Shown: positions 38,887-49,011, counted from the stretch's first letter. The stretch is 64,000 nt of DNA from Methylobacterium sp. (GCA_002928875.1 PERO01000020.1:558001-622000); one strand, 5' to 3'. Notes: generated by a model from the letters alone, not told the origin. Translations and numbers: made by a program.

Positions 38887-38962
38887 GCCGCAATAGCTCA
38901 GCTGGTAGAGCACGTCATTCGTAATGATGGGGTCGGGGGTTCGATTCCCTCTTGCGGCACCA
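38887..38962 (+). tRNA. tRNA-Thr (anticodon CGT)
   Basis: 76-nt cloverleaf GCCGCAA...TTGCGGC-A-CCA; anticodon loop TTCGTAA; GGTTCGATT T-loop. Confidence 0.96.
38940..38955 (+). repeat. att core direct repeat, tRNA side (attL)
   Basis: TTCGATTCCCTCTTGC. Confidence 0.88.
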
Positions 38963-39084
38963 CTTTCCTCTCCACAGACGTTCGCCCTCGTCCGTAAACG
39001 TCTGAAAAATCCAGATAAATCAAGCTTTATACGTCCAAAGACGTTCGCGGGCGTCCATTTTCGTGCGCTTGCAACCGGCACAAA

Positions 39085-39135
39085 TGTTGGGTTTCATGTT
39101 GGGTAACTGAAAAAGCCCAACACAAAAACCCAACA
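39085..39135. promoter_or_regulatory. Candidate integrase arm-type site cluster
   Basis: TGTTGGGTTT, TGTTGGGTAA, AAAAAGCCCAACA, AAAAACCCAACA within 51 bp. Confidence 0.5.
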
Positions 39136-39144
39136 GGTGCGCCC

Positions 39145-40377
39145 GTGGCTCTTACCGATTTCGCGATTCGAGCGATCAAGACGACCGGCGAAAAGCAGAA
39201 ATTCTCCGATGGTGGAGGTCTTCAGCTCTGGGTATCGCCCCAAGGCACAAAGACATGGCGCTTCGCCTATCGCTATCTCGGCAAGCAGAAGGACATGGTC
39301 CTAGGGCAATATCCGATTGTTGGGCTTTCGGAGGCACGGCAGCGGCGCAACGACGCAAAAACCCAACTCGCGAACGGCATCGACCCAGCTCAACAGAAGA
39401 AGCTGGATAAGGTCGCCAAGGCTATCAGCCATGCCACGACCTTCCGCGTGGTCGCCGAGGAATATCTCGACAAGCAGAAGCGTGAAGGCCGGTCGGAAAC
39501 CACCATCGTCAAGAATCGCTACCTTCTGGAACAGGCTTTTCCGGCCATCGGCGAAAGGCCGGTCGCTGAAATCAAGGCGGCAGAGGTGCTGGCCATCCTT
39601 AAGCACCTCGAAAAACGGGGAACGCTGGAAACGGCCAAGCGCGTCCGTGCGACCATTGGAGCCGTGATCCGATATGCCATCGCGACCGCCCGCGCGGAAA
39701 GCGATCCGACCACCGCACTTGCGGGAGCCATCATCGCCCCCAAGGTGAAGCATCGGGCGGCGATTCTTGATCCTGCCGAGTTGGGAGCCTTCCTGAGGGC
39801 CGTGGATCGCTTCGATGGTCAACCGACAACCGTTGCCGCGCTTCGCCTTCTACCGATGGTTTTTACGCGCCCCGGTGAATTGCGCATGGCCGAATGGCGG
39901 GAATTCGACCTTGCCAACGCACGATGGGTTATCCCGGCCAAGCGCACCAAGATGCGGCGCGAGCATGAAGTGCCGCTGGCGACGCAAGCCGTGGCCATCC
40001 TGAAGGAGCTTCACGCGCTCACGGGCAAGGGCAGGCTGGTGTTTCCCGGTCTTCGCACTGTGGAGCGCCCGATTTCCGAGAACACCCTCAACGCCTCGCT
40101 GCGGCGGATGGGCTATTCCAACGATACCGTGACGGCCCACGGCTTCCGCGCAACGGCCTCCACCCTTCTCAACCAATCCGGCAGGTTTTCGCCCGACGCC
40201 ATCGAACGCGCGCTGGCACACCAAGACCCGGATGCCGTCCGTCGCGCTTACAATCGCGGGGCCTATTGGAAGGAGCGGGTGGAAATGGCGCAATGGTGGG
40301 CTGATTATCTCGATAGGTTGCGCAAGGGGGCCGACGTTATCGCGTTCGAAAAGCGGAGCGGGACCGAGGCAGAGTAA
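39145..40377 (+). CDS. P4-type tyrosine integrase (DUF4102 N-terminal arm domain)
   Basis: KQKFSDGGGLQLWVSPQGTKTWRFAYRYLGKQKDMVLGQYP; catalytic R (RPGELR), HGFR, HQD, Y. Confidence 0.96.
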   Translation: MALTDFAIRAIKTTGEKQKFSDGGGLQLWVSPQGTKTWRFAYRYLGKQKDMVLGQYPIVGLSEARQRRNDAKTQLANGIDPAQQKKLDKVAKAISHATTFRVVAEEYLDKQKREGRSETTIVKNRYLLEQAFPAIGERPVAEIKAAEVLAILKHLEKRGTLETAKRVRATIGAVIRYAIATARAESDPTTALAGAIIAPKVKHRAAILDPAELGAFLRAVDRFDGQPTTVAALRLLPMVFTRPGELRMAEWREFDLANARWVIPAKRTKMRREHEVPLATQAVAILKELHALTGKGRLVFPGLRTVERPISENTLNASLRRMGYSNDTVTAHGFRATASTLLNQSGRFSPDAIERALAHQDPDAVRRAYNRGAYWKERVEMAQWWADYLDRLRKGADVIAFEKRSGTEAE

Positions 40378-40464
40378 TCCGGACCAGCATTATGTGGAAA
40401 CAAGCGCGTTTCCTTCGCAGACGTCTTTTCGAGGGATGCCTCCGCGAGCAAAATCGATCCTGCG

Positions 40465-41406
40465 ATGGCGGAAAAAGCTGCGATGGTCATTATCTCCCAC
40501 CCTTGGAAAGATAATCCGCTCGAATATCTGATGCGCATCAAGTTTCCACTTGAGCGCGCCTACACTGCGCCGTTTGTAAGCATCAGCTCTCGAAACCTCC
40601 CAATGCGAGACGACGCCTATGTTGAACGCGCAATCCAGTATAGGGCTGAACAGGTAGCGCGGGAGGAAGCACAGAAGGCAGTAGAGCGGCGAAACGCGGA
40701 AGAAAACAATCTGTTCTTCAGTCGTCCTGAATCCAACGCCGACGTCATGTATTGGTCCCGTATGTCTCTTTGGACATTGGAAGATGCGACGGCGCTATCT
40801 TTTGGCAAAGATCCGAGGAAAGTAAGCTGGGAAAAGCTGAAAAATTACGATCGGGTTTCGCCCTTCCCCATCAAATACAAGGAACAGTATGAGCTATTTC
40901 ACCGCGCGAAGCTTGCAGGGCAGCTCTGGGACTCAACGATTCCGAGAGTCTTTCTCGCATGGGCAAGGCGCATGCGCGTTGCAATGCCCCAGGACCTCAT
41001 CGCAGCGGTAGAGGATTTGGGCATACAAATTGCCGACTGGAAGACCCTCTTCGACAATCAGGAGCAGGAAACACAAACTGCCATTGCAAAGAAGGAAGCT
41101 GAGCTTAACGAGCTTCGCCAGCGCATTGCTGAGCTGACGACAAACACCCTCGGATCAGCCCCTCCTTCCCCAGTTGCTGAGAAGTCGCTTGGCATTCGCG
41201 AACGCGAGAGCCTTTTGAAACTGGTGATCGGGATGGCTGTAAACGGGTACGGCTATGATCCGAAGGCAGGGCGGAGCGACAAAATTCGGGAAATCGCCGG
41301 CGATCTTGAACGGCTCGGCATTGCCCTAGATGTCGACACCGTGCGCAAATACGTGAACGAGGGTCGCGGCTTGCTTCCGCCACCCGAAACCGAACAGAAG
41401 CGCTGA
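40465..41406 (+). CDS. Mobile-element-associated protein of unknown function, coiled-coil plus conserved C-terminal domain
   Basis: ORF following integrase; C-terminal RERESLLKLVIGMAVNGYGYDPKAGRSDKIREIAGDLERLGIALDVDTVRKYVNEG. Confidence 0.75.
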   Translation: MAEKAAMVIISHPWKDNPLEYLMRIKFPLERAYTAPFVSISSRNLPMRDDAYVERAIQYRAEQVAREEAQKAVERRNAEENNLFFSRPESNADVMYWSRMSLWTLEDATALSFGKDPRKVSWEKLKNYDRVSPFPIKYKEQYELFHRAKLAGQLWDSTIPRVFLAWARRMRVAMPQDLIAAVEDLGIQIADWKTLFDNQEQETQTAIAKKEAELNELRQRIAELTTNTLGSAPPSPVAEKSLGIRERESLLKLVIGMAVNGYGYDPKAGRSDKIREIAGDLERLGIALDVDTVRKYVNEGRGLLPPPETEQKR

Positions 41407-41439
41407 AACCGAATTCGGTTTCGCCCAAACCGAATTCGG
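41386..41439. promoter_or_regulatory. Candidate operator array
   Basis: Three AAACCGAA copies and an 18-bp perfect palindrome GAAACCGAATTCGGTTTC (41405-41422) upstream of the AlpA-like gene. Confidence 0.45.
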
Positions 41440-41498
41440 CCATGAGCTGAAACGGACATTCTAGGCCTGCCCCGTCTTAACGTGAACGGAGCAGACAT

Positions 41499-41729
41499 AT
41501 GCCGGACAATAGCGGATATCCTTCCTTCCAACTCCCCATCAGCGGTTTCCTTCGCCTTCAATCGATCATCAAGCCGCACGGGCCGATTCCGGTCGGCAAA
41601 TCGACATGGTGGGCTGGCGTCAAGGACGGCCGTTTTCCCCAGCCTGTGAAGCTTGGCTCACGCATCACCGTTTGGCGGGTGGAAGACATTCGGGCTCTTG
41701 TCGCCAAGGGGACCGGTCCCCATGCCTAA
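41499..41729 (+). CDS. AlpA-like phage/satellite transcriptional regulator
   Basis: FLRLQSIIKPHGPIPVGKSTWWAGVKDGRFPQPVKLGSRITVWRVEDIRALVAKG. Confidence 0.9.
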   Translation: MPDNSGYPSFQLPISGFLRLQSIIKPHGPIPVGKSTWWAGVKDGRFPQPVKLGSRITVWRVEDIRALVAKGTGPHA

Positions 41730-42150
41730 GCGCCCCGGTTGGCGCAGCATCAAGATCCACCGGAGCTACACCATCGAAGAAGCCGCGCGCCAGTTGAGCG
41801 TGGCGAAAGGCACGGTCCAGCGATGGCTGAAGACGGACGGATTGCCAGCGATGAAGGATCAGCGCCCCTTCCTGATCCACGGGCAGGACCTGATTGAATT
41901 CCTGAAACGCGACAAGCGATCCGGAAAGAAATGTAAGCTCCACGAAGCCTATTGTTTCTCCTGCCGCGAGCCGCGTGAACCGGCTGAGCGAATGGCTGAT
42001 CTCGTGGCGATTTCCGACAAGATCGGAGACCTCCAAGCCCTTTGCAGCCATTGCGGCGGCCTGATGCACAAGCGCGTGTCGATGCGCTTACAGGGTCAGC
42101 TTGGGACGCTTTTGGACCTCACGATCAGACAGCGCCAGTCGTCCATGTAG
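41722..42150 (+). CDS. HTH (excisionase/MerR-like) protein with C-terminal CxxC...CxxC zinc-ribbon
   Basis: YTIEEAARQLSVAKGTVQRWLKTDGLPAM plus YCFSCREP...LCSHCGGLMHKR; overlaps AlpA-like gene by 8 bp. Confidence 0.8.
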   Translation: MPKRPGWRSIKIHRSYTIEEAARQLSVAKGTVQRWLKTDGLPAMKDQRPFLIHGQDLIEFLKRDKRSGKKCKLHEAYCFSCREPREPAERMADLVAISDKIGDLQALCSHCGGLMHKRVSMRLQGQLGTLLDLTIRQRQSSM

Positions 42151-42361
42151 CAAATACACGATTGTTGCCAGTTGTGGGGACTATGGTGACCCGGCGCGGC
42201 GTCCCGATGCTGCCCTGAGGCCCCCCGGAACTACGTTCTGAACGGCTCCCGCCGGATCGACTTCGAGAGTTACAGCGATACCGCACCAACGGCAATAAGC
42301 ACCCATAGGGAAGTGACGCAAACCCAGTCTGAATGATGACTTCAGAAAGGACCCAAAGACG

Positions 42362-43465
42362 ATGCGAAAGCTCAACCCGAAAAACGAACGGATCAAGCGC
42401 GACTACCTCGCCTTCTTGACCGAGGCCAAGCGACAATCCGTGAAGAGCGTGGATCAGGCTGCGGCGGCAATCAGTGCCTTCGATGCCTATAACCGGCACC
42501 GGGATTTCAGGCTCTTTCACATCGAGCAAGCCAAGGGCTTCAAGCGCCATTTGCAAGAGCTGGCAAACAGCGAAACCGGCAAACCCCTCGCGGTCGCCAC
42601 GGTTCACTCCCGCTTGATGGCGCTGAAGGCTTTCTTCCAATGGTTGGCAGGGAGGCCGGGGTTTCGCCGGATCAGCTATGGCGATGCCGAGTATTTCAAT
42701 CCGTCTGCGAATGACACCCGGATCGCCAGCGCCGCGCGCGAGAAGCCCGCACCAAGCCTAGAGCAGATACGGCACGTTCTCGCGAGCATGCCGCACGAAA
42801 CGGACATCGAGAAGCGTAACCGGGCGCTGATCGCCTTCACGATCCTCACGGGCGCACGCGACGATGCGATTGCCTCTCTCGCCATCGGCAATGTGGACCT
42901 CAAAGCGCGCATGGTGATGCAGGACGCCCGCACGGTGCGCACCAAGCGCCGCAAGACCTTCCCGACCTACTTCTTTCCGGTTGGCGATGACATCGAAGCC
43001 ATCGTGGCGGATTGGCTCAATCACCTTCAGACGGTCCTGCATTTCGGGCCGAATGATCCGCTCTTCCCCAAGACGCGCGTTGTTAGCATGGAAGGTGCAG
43101 GCTTTACCGTTGCGGGGATTTCACGCGAGCCGTGGAGCAATGCCCAGGCGATCCGCACCATCTTCCGCGATGCCTTCGCGGCAGCCGGATTGCCCTACTT
43201 CATCCCGCATTCCTTCCGCCGCACCTTGGCGATGATCGGGGAAAAGACCTGCAAGACCCCTGAGGCTTTCAAGGCGTGGAGCCAGAACCTTGGGCATGAA
43301 GGCGTGCTCACCACCTTCACAAGCTACGGCGCGGTTGCTCCGCATCGGCAGGCGGAAATCATTGGCGGGATGCGCACCAAGCCAAACCTTGCGACCGGCG
43401 ATCTAGACGCGGCCACAATCCAGCGCGTGCTGCAACACGTCTCCCAGAACTTCAACACGCGCTAA
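42362..43465 (+). CDS. Second tyrosine-type site-specific recombinase
   Basis: TGARDDAIASL (R), HSFRRTL (HxxR), LGHEGVLTTFTSYG (H, Y). Confidence 0.9.
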   Translation: MRKLNPKNERIKRDYLAFLTEAKRQSVKSVDQAAAAISAFDAYNRHRDFRLFHIEQAKGFKRHLQELANSETGKPLAVATVHSRLMALKAFFQWLAGRPGFRRISYGDAEYFNPSANDTRIASAAREKPAPSLEQIRHVLASMPHETDIEKRNRALIAFTILTGARDDAIASLAIGNVDLKARMVMQDARTVRTKRRKTFPTYFFPVGDDIEAIVADWLNHLQTVLHFGPNDPLFPKTRVVSMEGAGFTVAGISREPWSNAQAIRTIFRDAFAAAGLPYFIPHSFRRTLAMIGEKTCKTPEAFKAWSQNLGHEGVLTTFTSYGAVAPHRQAEIIGGMRTKPNLATGDLDAATIQRVLQHVSQNFNTR

Positions 43466-43483
43466 ATCTGATCCGAACTTGGA

Positions 43484-46400
43484 TCAGGATGCCAGAGTCA
43501 TCGAAATCGTTTTCATGATGCGGTCGGTTTCGGATAGGATTTTCAGGATGCGCTGATAATGCTTCGCATCCTCAAACGAGAGTTGCCTGCCTTTTCGATC
43601 CTTGAGCCATTTCTGGGCAGGCTGATAGCCCCCGATATAGAATTCCCATGAAACGGGCGGGGCTTCATCGAAATACTGGGCCTTATTGATCCACACCCGG
43701 CCATCGCGGAATTCGGGCTTCTCAACCACGGTGTTTCCCTCACCCTTGAAGGGATAGGGCGTAGGGCCGATAGCGGCGGGCTCCATCAGGTGGAGTTTGC
43801 GCAGAAGCGTACCCTTGGCGGAGATATCCCAGAATTCATCCGGGCTGGCAGGCCAAGGAATGCGGGGGAAATCAATCTTGAGGAACTCCGCATATGTGCG
43901 GCGATAGGCCGGGCAATGCAGCACGCCATAGATATAATCGAACACCGCGACTTCATGGGGCGTGCCGTGGGTGGGGTGGGTGGCAAGGGTTTGCAGGCGT
44001 TTGTAGAGTTTAGGATCGAAGTTGACGCGGCGGGTTTTGTCGAGGTCTTGTTCGGATGGGTAGAGGTAGAGGGGAAAATGATAGGATTGTATCGTGCTTT
44101 CCCCAGTTTTCATTTCACTTGGACAGTCAGTGACAAAGAAATGTGTGAGCAAACCTGATTTGTTCTGTCGTCCTGAAATAAGTGCGAGATTAGATCCATC
44201 GATCATGTGGCGCATAAGCCCTCGCCGAGAGTCACCTCTGGGGATTATTCTATTAATCCGTGCGTATGGATAGTAGGTCCAACGCCAATCTAGCGGTCGG
44301 TATGCAACCCTCACAAAATCGATATCTTTCGGATATGCAAAATTCTCTCGCTGCTCGGCGAGCTTCCAGTCCTTTGTCTCAGAAAAGCGATACTTCCTAA
44401 ATAGAACTTCAGCCTCCAAGGAGGTTACATCATTGACCATCTGGACAGCATCGGAACGGTTATAATTACCCGTTATTAGGAGGCTGTCCTTTCGGAATTT
44501 GATTCCGCTAAGGCCGGAAACAAAAAACACGTCTAACTTAAAGCCATTCTCATATAGTGGCCTTTCAACAAATTTCCTACAAGTGAAGAAATGGTAGTCT
44601 CCGAGAAAGTTTGCATCAAAAAATTTGACAGATTTCAGGCTATTTTTGAAAAGATATTCATATTTTAACTGCCTCGCACCCCAAACGTCTGCGACTTTTA
44701 CATCCGCTAAATTTTTGCTTTCAGAAATTTTAAATGCAACAATGATCGAGACACCTTGCATAATGTCAAACACATTTTTGTCCGGAATCCCGTCAGGCGT
44801 TCGCTCTCTCTTATTGGAGTCACCGTGAAGATTTACAATGTATATCTTGTCAAATGTCTCTCTAAGATGTTTCCTCATTTTCCGATGAACCACTCCATCC
44901 AAAAACGAATTGTTTGTGATCATAGCAAAAATACCGTTTTTGTTTGCCGCTACAAACGTTTCAGCAAGTGCAATGAATTTTACGTAGTCGTCCGAAAGAG
45001 AATTCATGCTAGTTTCGTCAAGGTCTGCCTTATAGGGCGCAACGAGTTCCTGCGCGTGATCCCCCTTGTTGCTTGAAGAAACTGAATACGGCGGATTGCC
45101 AATCACGCACATGATCGGCGTCTGGCGTTTGATGCTGTTGGCTTCGCGCGCCTCACGCGTCAGCCATTGCGCCATGAAGAGATCACGTACATCGCGCTCG
45201 CCTTCCTCAAGGCTGTTGGTGAGGTAAACGCCAAGGCGAGGCGGGTTGCCGGTCGGCTTATAGCCTAGCTCGGTGAGAATCATATCGAGCTTCATGTGGC
45301 ACATGGCATAGGAGGCCATGAGCAACTCGAAGCCATGCAGGCGCGGGATCAGATCTTTCTCGATATAGGAAGACCACATCCCCTCCGCGACACCCTTCAC
45401 CTTGGGCGCGATCTGCTTGATCACTTCCGCGAGGAACGTGCCCGTGCCCGTCGCGGGATCAAGAATCTGAACGCGGTGAACCTCTTTTTTTGAGATGATC
45501 GGCTTTGATTTGCTGTCTGTGGTGCCGGTATCCCAATCGACGGTGACTTTCGAGGTGTCCGCCAAGCCCTCGGTTAAGCCGAATTCGGTTTGCAGCACTT
45601 CATCCACTGCACGCACGATGAAATTCACCACCGGCTCCGGCGTATACCAGACGCCACGCGCCTTGCGCTTCGCGGGGTTATAGGCCGCAAGGAAGGTCTC
45701 ATAGAAGTGCAGGAAGGGGTCTTGCTGGCCTGTCAGCTTGCCGAAGCCCGCCATGATTTTTTTGACGTTCGCAGCCTGAAAAATCTTCGCGAGATCGTCG
45801 ATTACCCATGCGATTCGATCATCAAGGTTTGGGCCTGCGATGAAGCCGAAGAGGTTTCGTAGGAAGGGGTTGGACTTGGGCAGAAGCTCCAGCGCCTCTT
45901 GCCTTGTGAACGTGCCCAATGACGTATCGTGCAGGCGAGCCGCAAACATGCCATAGGCGATTGTTTCGGCGTAGATATCCGCGAAATCCTCCGGCGTGAT
46001 GTCGTGGATCAGGTGCTCCTTGAACGCCTTGAACTGCCCTGCCAGCTCCGACTGGAATTCGTGATCAAGCTTCAGGGTATTGAAGAGGACATCCTTGATC
46101 AGCACAGCCTTGCCTGCCATGCGCTGAGCAAGGTCTTTCGGTGAAGTGATCGTTTGGGGACGCTGGGCAACGAAGTCCCGCAACAGATTTTCGAGCCGCG
46201 CGAATTGACCGGGTATCGGCTGAATGCCCATCAGGAAATCGGCGATGGTCACCGACGCAATCAGGTTGCCGTCGCGATAAAAATCCCAGTCGAGGCAATT
46301 CGTGTAAATGAGGTTCGGTAAGCCCGCCCGGTAGCGATCCTGTTGGCGCTTATTGGCATCCTTCATGGCGCGGATATCCAAATCGATATCCTTCGCCTCC

Positions 46401-46603
46401 AGATGCCCGATAGCGATTTCGCCGCGCAACACGATAAAGTCAGGTGCACCGACTTCGGTCTTTGCTGCATCGTTGACCGGCGTCAGGTCATCCGCCAGCG
46501 CCTTCAGCAAGTCGTGCAATGCAGGCCGGTAGGCGTGTTCACGAGCGATGCCAGTCTTATGGACAGCTTGCACTGCTGAAATGAAATTGGAGATGATGCT
46601 CAT
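43484..46603 (-). CDS. Single-chain restriction-modification protein (type ISP/IIG-like): PD-(D/E)xK nuclease plus N6-adenine methyltransferase plus TRD
   Basis: GAPDFIVLRGEIAIGHLEAKD (nuclease), LDPATGTGTFLAEV (motif I), GNPPYSV (motif IV); start at MSIISNF. Confidence 0.88.
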   Translation of the reverse strand: MSIISNFISAVQAVHKTGIAREHAYRPALHDLLKALADDLTPVNDAAKTEVGAPDFIVLRGEIAIGHLEAKDIDLDIRAMKDANKRQQDRYRAGLPNLIYTNCLDWDFYRDGNLIASVTIADFLMGIQPIPGQFARLENLLRDFVAQRPQTITSPKDLAQRMAGKAVLIKDVLFNTLKLDHEFQSELAGQFKAFKEHLIHDITPEDFADIYAETIAYGMFAARLHDTSLGTFTRQEALELLPKSNPFLRNLFGFIAGPNLDDRIAWVIDDLAKIFQAANVKKIMAGFGKLTGQQDPFLHFYETFLAAYNPAKRKARGVWYTPEPVVNFIVRAVDEVLQTEFGLTEGLADTSKVTVDWDTGTTDSKSKPIISKKEVHRVQILDPATGTGTFLAEVIKQIAPKVKGVAEGMWSSYIEKDLIPRLHGFELLMASYAMCHMKLDMILTELGYKPTGNPPRLGVYLTNSLEEGERDVRDLFMAQWLTREAREANSIKRQTPIMCVIGNPPYSVSSSNKGDHAQELVAPYKADLDETSMNSLSDDYVKFIALAETFVAANKNGIFAMITNNSFLDGVVHRKMRKHLRETFDKIYIVNLHGDSNKRERTPDGIPDKNVFDIMQGVSIIVAFKISESKNLADVKVADVWGARQLKYEYLFKNSLKSVKFFDANFLGDYHFFTCRKFVERPLYENGFKLDVFFVSGLSGIKFRKDSLLITGNYNRSDAVQMVNDVTSLEAEVLFRKYRFSETKDWKLAEQRENFAYPKDIDFVRVAYRPLDWRWTYYPYARINRIIPRGDSRRGLMRHMIDGSNLALISGRQNKSGLLTHFFVTDCPSEMKTGESTIQSYHFPLYLYPSEQDLDKTRRVNFDPKLYKRLQTLATHPTHGTPHEVAVFDYIYGVLHCPAYRRTYAEFLKIDFPRIPWPASPDEFWDISAKGTLLRKLHLMEPAAIGPTPYPFKGEGNTVVEKPEFRDGRVWINKAQYFDEAPPVSWEFYIGGYQPAQKWLKDRKGRQLSFEDAKHYQRILKILSETDRIMKTISMTLAS

Positions 46604-46727
46604 ATTCGGCCTTCGCGCGCTGCGTGAATCAGTGGCAACTTCCAAGGCCGAAACATTGCACAGGCAACCGGACGTTGGGTATTCGGCAAGCAATCTTGCA
46701 GCCCAAAAATCGCCTAGCGCCGCAATT

Positions 46728-46751
46728 TGTTGGGCTTTTTGTTGGTCTTTT
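46728..46751. promoter_or_regulatory. Right-end candidate integrase arm sites
   Basis: TGTTGGGCTTTTTGTTGGTCTTTT; first 13 nt are the reverse complement of AAAAAGCCCAACA at the left end. Confidence 0.45.
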
Positions 46752-46801
46752 CAAAACCGCATTTATTTTTCACGCTTTACATCAATAGCATAAGCCGTTC
46801 T

Positions 46802-46817
46802 TTCGATTCCCTCTTGC
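46802..46817 (+). repeat. att core direct repeat, distal side (attR)
   Basis: TTCGATTCCCTCTTGC. Confidence 0.88.
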
Positions 46818-46860
46818 TCCGGGTGAGACTGGTGGCTCGGGCGGAGCGGGATGTCCGGCG

Positions 46861-47880
46861 TTAGCGGACAGGGGGCGCGTAGAGGATGCCGCCGGCGCTC
46901 CAGAGCTGGTTCAGGCCGCGCGGGATGCCGAGGCGCGAGCCGGTCCCGACATTCCGTTCATAGAGTTCGGCAAAGTTGCCGACGGCCTCGATGGCGCGGC
47001 GGGCCCACGCATCCTCGAGGCCCAGCATCCGGCCAAGACCGCCTTCCAGGCCGAGGAGGCGCCGCACGTCGGGCTTGTTCGATTGGAGGGCCTGCGGCAG
47101 GGATTGCGCCGAAACGCCCAGTTCTTCGGCATCGATCAGCGCGAAAGCCACCCATTTCACGATATTGTGCCAGCGCAGATCGTCGCCGCGGGTCACAGGG
47201 CCCAGCGGCTCCTTCGAGATGATGTCAGGCAGGATGATGGCCTCGGCCGGCCGGTCGAGTTTCAGGCGCTCGGCAAACAGGCCGGAATTGTCGGTCGTCA
47301 CGGCGATGCACTCGCCTTTTGCAAAGCCGGCGAGGGTGCTCGCCGAATCCGGATAGACCTTGATCTCGACCGTCATGGCGTTGGCCGCGAAGAAATCGCG
47401 CGCCGCGCCCTGGCTGGTCGTGCCGGCCTGCACGCAGACGGCCTTGCCGCCAAGTTCCAGCGCCGAGGTGAGGCCGGAATTCCGCCGCACCATGAAGCCC
47501 TGCCCGTCATGAAACAGCACGGCCGCGAAAAGCAGGCCGAATTCCGCCTCGCGCTGCAGGGTCCAGGTCGAGTTGCGGGAAAGAACGTCAATGCGCCCCG
47601 CCTTCAACGCGTCAAACCGCTCGGCGGCGGTGAGCGGCACGAAGGTCACGCGATCCGGATTGCCCAGCACCGCCGCAGCCACGGCGCGGCAGAAATCGAC
47701 GTCGAAACCGGCCCATTTTCCATCCTGCTGGAAGGAGAAGCCGTAAAGCCCGGTGCTCACGCCGCATTGCAGGCTGCCGCGCTGGCGCACCTGCTCCAGG
47801 GTGCCGGTTTGCGCCGCAGCCGACCCGGTGAAGCCGAAGAGGGCGAGGGACAGGGCCGCGAGCGTTCTGCGCCACATCAT
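46861..47880 (-). CDS. Amino-acid ABC transporter substrate-binding protein (AapJ/BztA-like)
   Basis: LEQVRQRGSLQCGVSTGLYGFSFQQDGKWAGFDVDFCRAVAAAVLG. Confidence 0.92.
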   Translation of the reverse strand: MMWRRTLAALSLALFGFTGSAAAQTGTLEQVRQRGSLQCGVSTGLYGFSFQQDGKWAGFDVDFCRAVAAAVLGNPDRVTFVPLTAAERFDALKAGRIDVLSRNSTWTLQREAEFGLLFAAVLFHDGQGFMVRRNSGLTSALELGGKAVCVQAGTTSQGAARDFFAANAMTVEIKVYPDSASTLAGFAKGECIAVTTDNSGLFAERLKLDRPAEAIILPDIISKEPLGPVTRGDDLRWHNIVKWVAFALIDAEELGVSAQSLPQALQSNKPDVRRLLGLEGGLGRMLGLEDAWARRAIEAVGNFAELYERNVGTGSRLGIPRGLNQLWSAGGILYAPPVR

Positions 47881-47890
47881 GGAAAGCTCC

Positions 47891-48502
47891 TCAGACCTGC
47901 GGGCCATGCCGGATGACGACTTTCGCGCCCACCGGCACGCGTTCGAACAGGTCGATCACGTCGCCATTGGCAAGGCGGAAACAGCCCGAGGAGATCGCCT
48001 GCCCGATCGTCTCCGGCTGGTTGGTGCCATGGATGCGATAGACCGTGGAGCCGAGATAGAGCGCCCGCGCACCCATGGGGTTGCCCGGCCCGCCAGCCAT
48101 GAAACGCGGCAGATAGGGCTGGCGCTGGATCATCTCGGGCGGCGGGGTCCAGTCTGGCCATTCGGCCTTGCGGGTCACCTTCTGCAGGCCCGCCCACTGG
48201 AAGCCCTCGCGCCCCACGCCGATGCCGTAGCGCAGCGCGCGATTGTTGCCCATCACCACGTAGAGAAACCGCTCGGAGGTGTGAATGACGACCGTGTTCG
48301 GCGGATCGCTCGAGCGGAAGAACACCATCTGCCGGGCATAGGGCCCATCCTCGATGATCGTCTCGGGGGTCGAGACCCGGCCAGGCTCGTCGCCGATATC
48401 CATCGTCTCCGGCGGCGGCTTGTGCGCCTGCGCCAGGGCGGAGGTCGCGAGCGGCATCGCGAGCATGGCGACGAGGAGGGCGAGGGAAAGAACGCGATTC
48501 AT
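47891..48502 (-). CDS. L,D-transpeptidase (YkuD family)
   Basis: YRIHGTNQPETIGQAISSGCFRLANGDVIDL. Confidence 0.93.
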   Translation of the reverse strand: MNRVLSLALLVAMLAMPLATSALAQAHKPPPETMDIGDEPGRVSTPETIIEDGPYARQMVFFRSSDPPNTVVIHTSERFLYVVMGNNRALRYGIGVGREGFQWAGLQKVTRKAEWPDWTPPPEMIQRQPYLPRFMAGGPGNPMGARALYLGSTVYRIHGTNQPETIGQAISSGCFRLANGDVIDLFERVPVGAKVVIRHGPQV

Positions 48503-48522
48503 GATTGTCACCTCCCGCTCAC

Positions 48523-49011
48523 TCACTTGCACCGCACATAGATGAAGGTGCCGTACCGGTTATGGATTTCCGGATCGACGAAGCGCATCACCCACTGGTC
48601 GTTCGTGGCGGAGAGGATGACGCGATCCTGCCAGTCGCCGGGCGGGGCTTCGAAGCCGAGATAGGTCTTGCCGTCCGATCCGCCCTTGAGGCGCAATTCG
48701 TAGAGTTTCGGGTCATCCGCGGCGTGCATCATCACGCCGTTGCTGGGGCCGGCGGCGATGACATAGGGCTGGCGCGCGCAGAACGAGCGGGCCTGCGCCG
48801 TGACGCGGGCGCGGTCCTTCTCCTCGCGGAAGGACGCGATGCCCCAGCGGCCGATCAGCATCTCGCGGGTGAGTTCGGTCGGGCGTTCGGTCAGCGTCGA
48901 GGAGGCAATTGCCGGGGCGGCGGCTTCGCTCTCCGGTGCCTCCGGCAGGCTCGCGCAGGCAGCGAGGCTTAGCATCAGCCCGGATGCGAGACCGGCTACT
49001 CCAAGCTTCAT
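48523..49011 (-). CDS. Hypothetical lipoprotein
   Basis: Lipobox LSLAACAS near N-terminus; start MKLGVAGLASG. Confidence 0.7.
   Translation of the reverse strand: MKLGVAGLASGLMLSLAACASLPEAPESEAAAPAIASSTLTERPTELTREMLIGRWGIASFREEKDRARVTAQARSFCARQPYVIAAGPSNGVMMHAADDPKLYELRLKGGSDGKTYLGFEAPPGDWQDRVILSATNDQWVMRFVDPEIHNRYGTFIYVRCK

Follow-up and report, generated by a model that had tools for sequence, protein, structure and literature searches.

The mobility of R-M systems is known; to our knowledge, a defined vehicle is usually not named for them. In CP4-57 of Escherichia coli and CP4So of Shewanella, both inserted in ssrA, a P4-type integrase lies beside the RNA gene and an AlpA is present. Excision of these elements passes a deletion to ssrA (T357 of 363, position 7 from the end), by which tmRNA function is abolished (PMC10107115, PMC5148205), and the same or larger losses were listed for further P4-integrase elements in ssrA (PMC10107115, Table 1). 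I55-type genomic islands of Pseudomonas (PMC12595487) combine Int, AlpA and defence genes including IIG R-M with flanking repeats and carry no transfer genes; they occupy a tmRNA site, share 18 kb in which YqaJ and Gp2-like genes lie, and are carried by a jumbo phage. The PICMI of Vibrionaceae (PMC10803314) are likewise small, with int, AlpA, an extra gene directly after int and a defence hotspot including R-M; they lie beside fis, possess a primase core gene and have a helper phage that was shown.

The DNA analysed here (the window) is a stretch of 64 kb from a Methylobacterium sp. assembly of 3.24 Mb. Positions 38940-46817 very probably constitute a small island that was inserted by the integrase Int1 at tRNA-Thr(CGT), bears a single R-M load, and belongs to a family in which a fixed chassis (Int1, a slot-2 gene, AlpA, HTHZn and Rec2) is combined with exchangeable defence cargo. 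As in CP4-57 and CP4So, the P4-type integrase adjoins an RNA gene, AlpA is present, and in the family the distal att copy is missing the nucleotide at position 7 from the 3' end. In contrast to these elements, which target tmRNA and comprise 22-36 kb, the family targets tRNA genes, comprises about 7-15 kb, and has an HTHZn-Rec2 pair and one R-M system as main cargo. The available parts of the sources describe no Rec2-HTHZn for the I55-type islands (PMC12595487) and no second recombinase for PICMI (PMC10803314). The features of the element were assigned as follows:

38887..38962, plus strand: tRNA-Thr(CGT), the insertion target, 3' part = attL (ARAGORN)
38940..38955, plus strand: attL core, copy of the 16-bp repeat (exact, unique pair in the genome)
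39085..39135, plus strand: putative left arm-type integrase sites, TGTTGGG twice with 12-bp spacing, then CCCAACA twice, inverted (motif scan)
39145..40377, plus strand: Int1, P4-type tyrosine integrase, 410 aa (PF13356, Arm-DNA-bind_3; PF22022, Phage_int_M; PF00589, Phage_integrase)
40465..41406, plus strand: slot-2 gene U313, 313 aa, no confident family match; relatives occupy the same slot
41499..41729, plus strand: AlpA-like regulator and probable excision factor, 76 aa (PF05930, E = 1.7e-5)
41722..42150, plus strand: HTHZn, excisionase-type HTH and four-Cys Zn ribbon, 142 aa (PF12728, HTH_17; TIGR01764 over cut-off)
42362..43465, plus strand: Rec2, Cre/Xer-like tyrosine recombinase without arm-binding domain, 367 aa (PF00589)
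43484..46693, minus strand: single-chain R-M enzyme, type IIG-like, with Type_ISP_C specificity domain (PADLOC PDLC03610, 6e-270; PF02384; PF18135)
46728..46745, plus strand: putative right arm-type integrase sites, two, with 12-bp spacing (motif scan)
46802..46817, plus strand: attR core copy, ending 7 nt before the tRNA end (final GGCACCA absent)

The ends were defined by the direct repeat TTCGATTCCCTCTTGC, identical at 38940-38955 and 46802-46817. The original prediction had placed this 16-bp repeat in the 3' part of tRNA-Thr and at the far end, and both copies proved exact and the only two in the assembly, while the 7-nt shortfall of the distal copy relative to the tRNA end had gone unmentioned there; with up to 2 mismatches allowed, 0.07 chance matches are expected in the 64-kb window. 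The motif TGTTGG-N6-TGTTGG occurs only twice in the window (about 0.002 pairs expected by chance), at 39085 and at 46728, just inside each element end, the right pair being located 74 bp ahead of the distal repeat. A third, inverted pair spans 39116-39135. By analogy with tyrosine integrases in general, these pairs may represent arm-type integrase sites, and Int1 carries the arm-binding domain PF13356. The same layout, with its own motif variant per element, was found at both ends of five relatives (G001, G005, G012, G015 and L143), and across the family a recognisable attR is nearly always preceded by a pair at a distance of about 75 bp. Because of the paired arm-type sites at both ends, a single P4-type integrase appears to set the limits of all 7.9 kb, with Rec2 and the R-M gene inside them, in agreement with the one element predicted between these repeats. 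G+C content is mostly 0.54-0.61 within the element, with a minimum of 0.42 in the R-M gene, and 0.65-0.72 in the flanks. Int1 would insert a circular form at the tRNA-Thr 3' end via the arm sites of both ends.

The int1 gene starts 183 bp past tRNA-Thr, adjoining the tRNA 3' end, and is followed by the slot-2 gene, AlpA, HTHZn, Rec2 and the single-chain R-M enzyme. Domain matches bore out the six genes originally read here; two of the proposed start codons had to be revised. For HTHZn, ATG 41722, overlapping the AlpA stop, is most likely the start (instead of TTG 41653), and for the R-M protein it is probably ATG 46603 (instead of TTG 46693). AlpA probably drives excision, by analogy with CP4-57 and CP4So. 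U313, for which a search yielded no confident family match, contains a conserved W-x-EA-x-L-x-G-x-DP region and a conserved C-terminal segment. Its slot has the position of the PICMI excision gene iolg, which may serve as no more than a lead. The slot-2 gene of G001 overlaps int by 4 nt. Two more Int1 relatives are present in the genome of the window (G000:C7:27764-28978 and G000:C1:808144-808914), neither of them adjoining a Rec2.

Rec2 shows the features of a tyrosine recombinase (R, K, HxxR, H and Y together with the fold): R166, K195/K198, H283, R286, H312 and Y322 are invariant among 23 relatives, and the AlphaFold model (mean pLDDT 89.6) best matched the folds of Cre, XerA and the lambda-Int core. 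Fold and catalytic residues are thus those of Xer/Cre recombinases (XerA 5hxy, Cre), from which Rec2 differs by an identity of only 14-17%, by its pairing with an HTH/Zn-ribbon protein and by its location on chromosomal islands. The Zn-ribbon cysteines of HTHZn (CxxC...CxxC; C78, C81, C108 and C111) are invariant as well. HTHZn and Rec2 look like a second recombinase/excisionase-like pair, and may act as such.

The R-M enzyme was classified as type IIG-like because a Type_ISP_C domain is present and a helicase/translocase is absent. LlaBIII (type ISP, PDB 4xqk) and type IIG enzymes likewise combine N6-methyltransferase and Type_ISP_C in one chain. LlaBIII has 1578 aa with a helicase/translocase, whereas the enzyme of the window has 1069 aa without one: only residues 311-959 align to LlaBIII (829-1450), and no RecA-like helicase/translocase was found in the chain, the alignment beginning only at residue 311. 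The label type ISP was rejected for lack of a helicase. A putative nuclease (predicted from the motif GAPDFIVL...HLEAKD, which was identified by eye), an N6-methyltransferase and a specificity domain, the marks of type IIG, were recognised in the single chain. The enzyme would protect host and element against phages and foreign DNA, and loss of the island would be penalised.

In three genomes of the same genus (G001, G005 and G015), the Int1-HTHZn-Rec2 core adjoins the same tRNA-Thr, with distal tRNA 3' copies at +7354, +7159 and +12080, respectively, counted from the first base of the tRNA, and arm pairs are also present. By ORF reading, G001 and G005 carry IIG enzymes (972 and 959 aa, respectively) and G015 carries hsdRSM of type I; another element of G001, in tRNA-Leu, carries type III mod/res. 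G012 and G013 have Int1 relatives without Rec2 at this tRNA-Thr, and in G003 and G009 the tRNA-Thr is intact with no int1 match alongside. The chromosomal right flank is the same in G011, G013 and G015, whereas the content between tRNA and flank amounts to about 0.4, 18.9 and 12.4 kb, respectively; content at this site thus appears to be gained and lost. Neither a circular form of the window element nor a genome from which it had been excised was encountered. Its exact empty site was not recovered, the solute-binding-protein gene of its right flank being located elsewhere in G004-G007. The right junction may thus have been rearranged after insertion. This non-syntenic flank, together with the tRNA end missing from attR, would also suit a decayed, immobile island that persists as a relic only. 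We consider a relic rather improbable, as none of the six reading frames is interrupted, the Rec2 catalytic residues are intact, and arm sites and core repeat are exact.

Separately, the solute-binding-protein block (window 46818-48900 versus L053-L056) lies about 72 kb left of the tRNA in G004, which marks a large rearrangement between relatives. Left ends of a second element without intact int were seen behind attR in G015 (L072 and L076, 12086-12280 from the tRNA start), at the end of L069 (G005) and at the end of L189. Each is either a remnant or an insertion in tandem at this tRNA.

Cargo was compared at several scales. Among 28 GTDB loci with the full core, 26 had 5 kb of sequence behind Rec2, and an R-M gene was found there in 22 of these 26 with an R-M panel derived from these same elements. 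In the best 80 of 525 Rec2 loci, an R-M match was located within 5 kb downstream of Rec2 in 37 of 63 and upstream in 7 of 67. With independent Pfam models, an R-M methyltransferase was recorded near Rec2 at 13 of 19 loci of sufficient sequence length versus 4 of 46 Int1-type integrases without Rec2 (Fisher p = 2e-6; both counts hand-tabulated, with 15 kb allowed for controls and about 5 kb for Rec2, and short control contigs included). Alphaproteobacterial cargo behind Rec2 was nearly always a single R-M system (type I, IIG or III) and otherwise mostly other defence. Those exceptions among the full-core loci that were checked had type II methyltransferases (L200) or the candidate defence system PDC-M65 (L167), and other Rec2 loci contained a D12 methyltransferase (L193) or a NACHT protein (L223). 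A CRISPR array with cas-like ORFs, type I-C-like by ORF reading, follows Rec2 in L158 (G251 C50) in place of R-M, and three family members have no recognisable R-M (G100, G220 and G310). One chassis, marked by the conserved HTHZn-Rec2 pair, carries type I, II, IIG and III systems singly, and the pair may be used as a sequence marker for locating defence cargo.

That Rec2 directly precedes R-M genes and is enriched beside them is also what would be expected of a DNA invertase or regulator of the R-M system, comparable to recombinases beside hsdS loci and outside element mobility. This is very unlikely, since Rec2 accompanies single-chain IIG, type III, CRISPR-Cas, PDC-M65 and NACHT cargo as well, and a search for long inverted repeats in the R-M gene of the window found none. 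An HsdS-type invertase role in particular was discarded as unlikely because cargo types without hsdS occur.

A cassette difference was seen between G053 and G165, whose elements occupy the same tRNA-Leu, with identities of 91% in int and 86% in AlpA-HTHZn-Rec2. Their cargo is unrelated (type III in G053, IIG in G165), and homology resumes over 254 bp at the right end. Homology stops about 100 bp past the rec2 stop, at no shared motif, and across loci no conserved DNA was found behind the rec2 stop that could serve as a cassette-exchange site. Without a shared motif at the boundary, exchange driven by Rec2 is no more likely than homologous recombination within the chassis. Close sister elements that differ in the cassette only constitute a system for testing cassette exchange. 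In the close pair G001/G005, the slot-2 gene differs.

In the order, Rec2 matches were found in 29 of 298 genomes and U313 matches in 17. In neighbourhoods across the order, the arrangement tRNA-Int1-slot 2-AlpA-HTHZn-Rec2 occurs at tRNA-Thr (CGT, TGT) and tRNA-Leu (CAG, CAA), and the sites of the alphaproteobacterial chassis are tRNA-Thr, -Leu or -Phe. A scan of 85,462 GTDB species genomes yielded 525 confirmed Rec2 stretches. The best 80 of these 525 came from Alpha-, Beta-, Gamma- and delta-type Proteobacteria, Acidobacteria and one Nitrospinota MAG; HTHZn directly preceded Rec2 in 72 of the 80, an int1 relative was present in 48 and AlpA in 32. Conservation of HTHZn-Rec2 across phyla beside defence cargo suggests a putative core role for the pair.

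Alternatively, two elements could be nested, the outer one bounded by Int1 and the inner one consisting of HTHZn-Rec2 and the R-M gene. HTHZn-Rec2 does occur in other phyla without Int1 or AlpA relatives, upstream or downstream of cargo, and L152, L154 and L156 have the AlpA-HTHZn-Rec2 block in the opposite orientation to int, with Rec2 facing the int end. Nesting was nevertheless judged decidedly unlikely: no second repeat pair was found around Rec2 and cargo, no conserved DNA follows the rec2 stop across loci, and the order of Rec2 and Int1 is fixed in most loci from Alphaproteobacteria.

The original prediction had named a minimal defence-carrying satellite or an integrative island. The island is supported by sister elements with the same core at the same tRNA-Thr and other R-M systems; the satellite part found no support. 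With Int and AlpA at a tRNA, a small overall size, a load of defence genes and a gene right after int, the element does resemble PICMI, and I55-type islands with a IIG enzyme travel in a jumbo phage (PMC12595487), as would suit a phage satellite or remnant that is excised and packaged by a helper phage. Such a satellite is unlikely. Replication, packaging and conjugation genes were not found in the element; its six genes include no relaxase or conjugation gene (by which an ICE or IME is recognised) and no structural phage gene, as had been predicted, and the Pfam and PHROGs matches include no primase, capsid-remodelling or packaging gene. Rec2 gave 0 matches among 50,697 phage records, four distant matches among 72,556 plasmids, and 10 matches in 2.9 million viral contigs of IMG/VR (45-59% identity, L243-L252), which may be mis-sorted islands or real carriage. 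The element is accordingly best regarded as an island of an ordinary kind, a tRNA island with defence cargo, in a variant that, judging by the open literature searched, is undescribed; no description of an R-M island family marked by Rec2-HTHZn was found there.

The distal tRNA copies of the family were then compared with the copies beside int, which are intact in all elements included. One nucleotide is missing from the distal copy in 25 of 31 elements with an identifiable copy (G001, G012, G013, G015, L144, L147, L149, L169, L171, L172, L174, L175, L178, L179, L181, L183, L186, L189, L191, L192, L194, L198, L199, L200 and L237). Deletions at each of 13 positions, as well as all substitutions, were permitted in the attR search, and every deletion found fits position 7 from the 3' end, i.e. 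tRNA nt 70. Of the remaining six copies, three are intact (L143, L193 and L206), one has a substitution (G100), and those of the window and G005 end just before the affected base. Six isotypes are involved (tRNA-Thr, Leu(CAG), Leu(GAG), Phe, Glu and Gly). As the loss is also seen in G012 and G013, which have no Rec2, it belongs to the Int1 subfamily. The distal copy of CP4-57 in E. coli K-12 has the same one-base difference, as checked by sequence; for the K-12 leuX element, no att copy was found in the stretch searched. In the literature consulted, loss of this base at the distal copy appears to be known only from ssrA elements, so that the family would generalise the published ssrA phenomenon to tRNA genes and predict a tRNA gene disabled on island loss. 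We infer that the loss comes about because the affected base is situated within the overlap of strand exchange or at its edge. The altered attR may derive from a shorter copy borne by the element or from later loss, neither of which is preferred.

By analogy with CP4-57 and CP4So, excision of the window element should leave tRNA-Thr without its last 7 nt, i.e. broken. The predicted post-excision end is TTGC-TCCGGG, and the predicted fold has no acceptor stem. Since attR has no tRNA end, the functional tRNA-Thr now depends on the element. A tRNA with TGT anticodon could read ACG by wobble. If the prediction is true, disabling of the tRNA would add another form of addiction to that exerted by the R-M enzyme.

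A more far-reaching reading is put forward only tentatively, as a possibility that we hold to be less probable than its opposite. Here, HTHZn-Rec2 would be a dedicated second recombination module that exchanges or stabilises the defence cassette, with Int1 and AlpA moving the island, and would define a widespread class of R-M chassis; in addition, the family would hold host tRNAs hostage via the nt-70 loss, extending the ssrA excision switch to at least six isotypes.

Two further arrangements were observed among the relatives. In G100 (L145/L146), about 24 kb separate slot 2 from AlpA and a 34-bp left-end repeat follows Rec2, which suggests a second element in tandem. In distant phyla, two further small genes are shared upstream of HTHZn-Rec2 (L216, L223 and L227; STKNFxRQMPNALL... 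and ...AVLVNDEDLxQW...), and Rec2 elements of this type carry NACHT or LRR-Roc-COR proteins.
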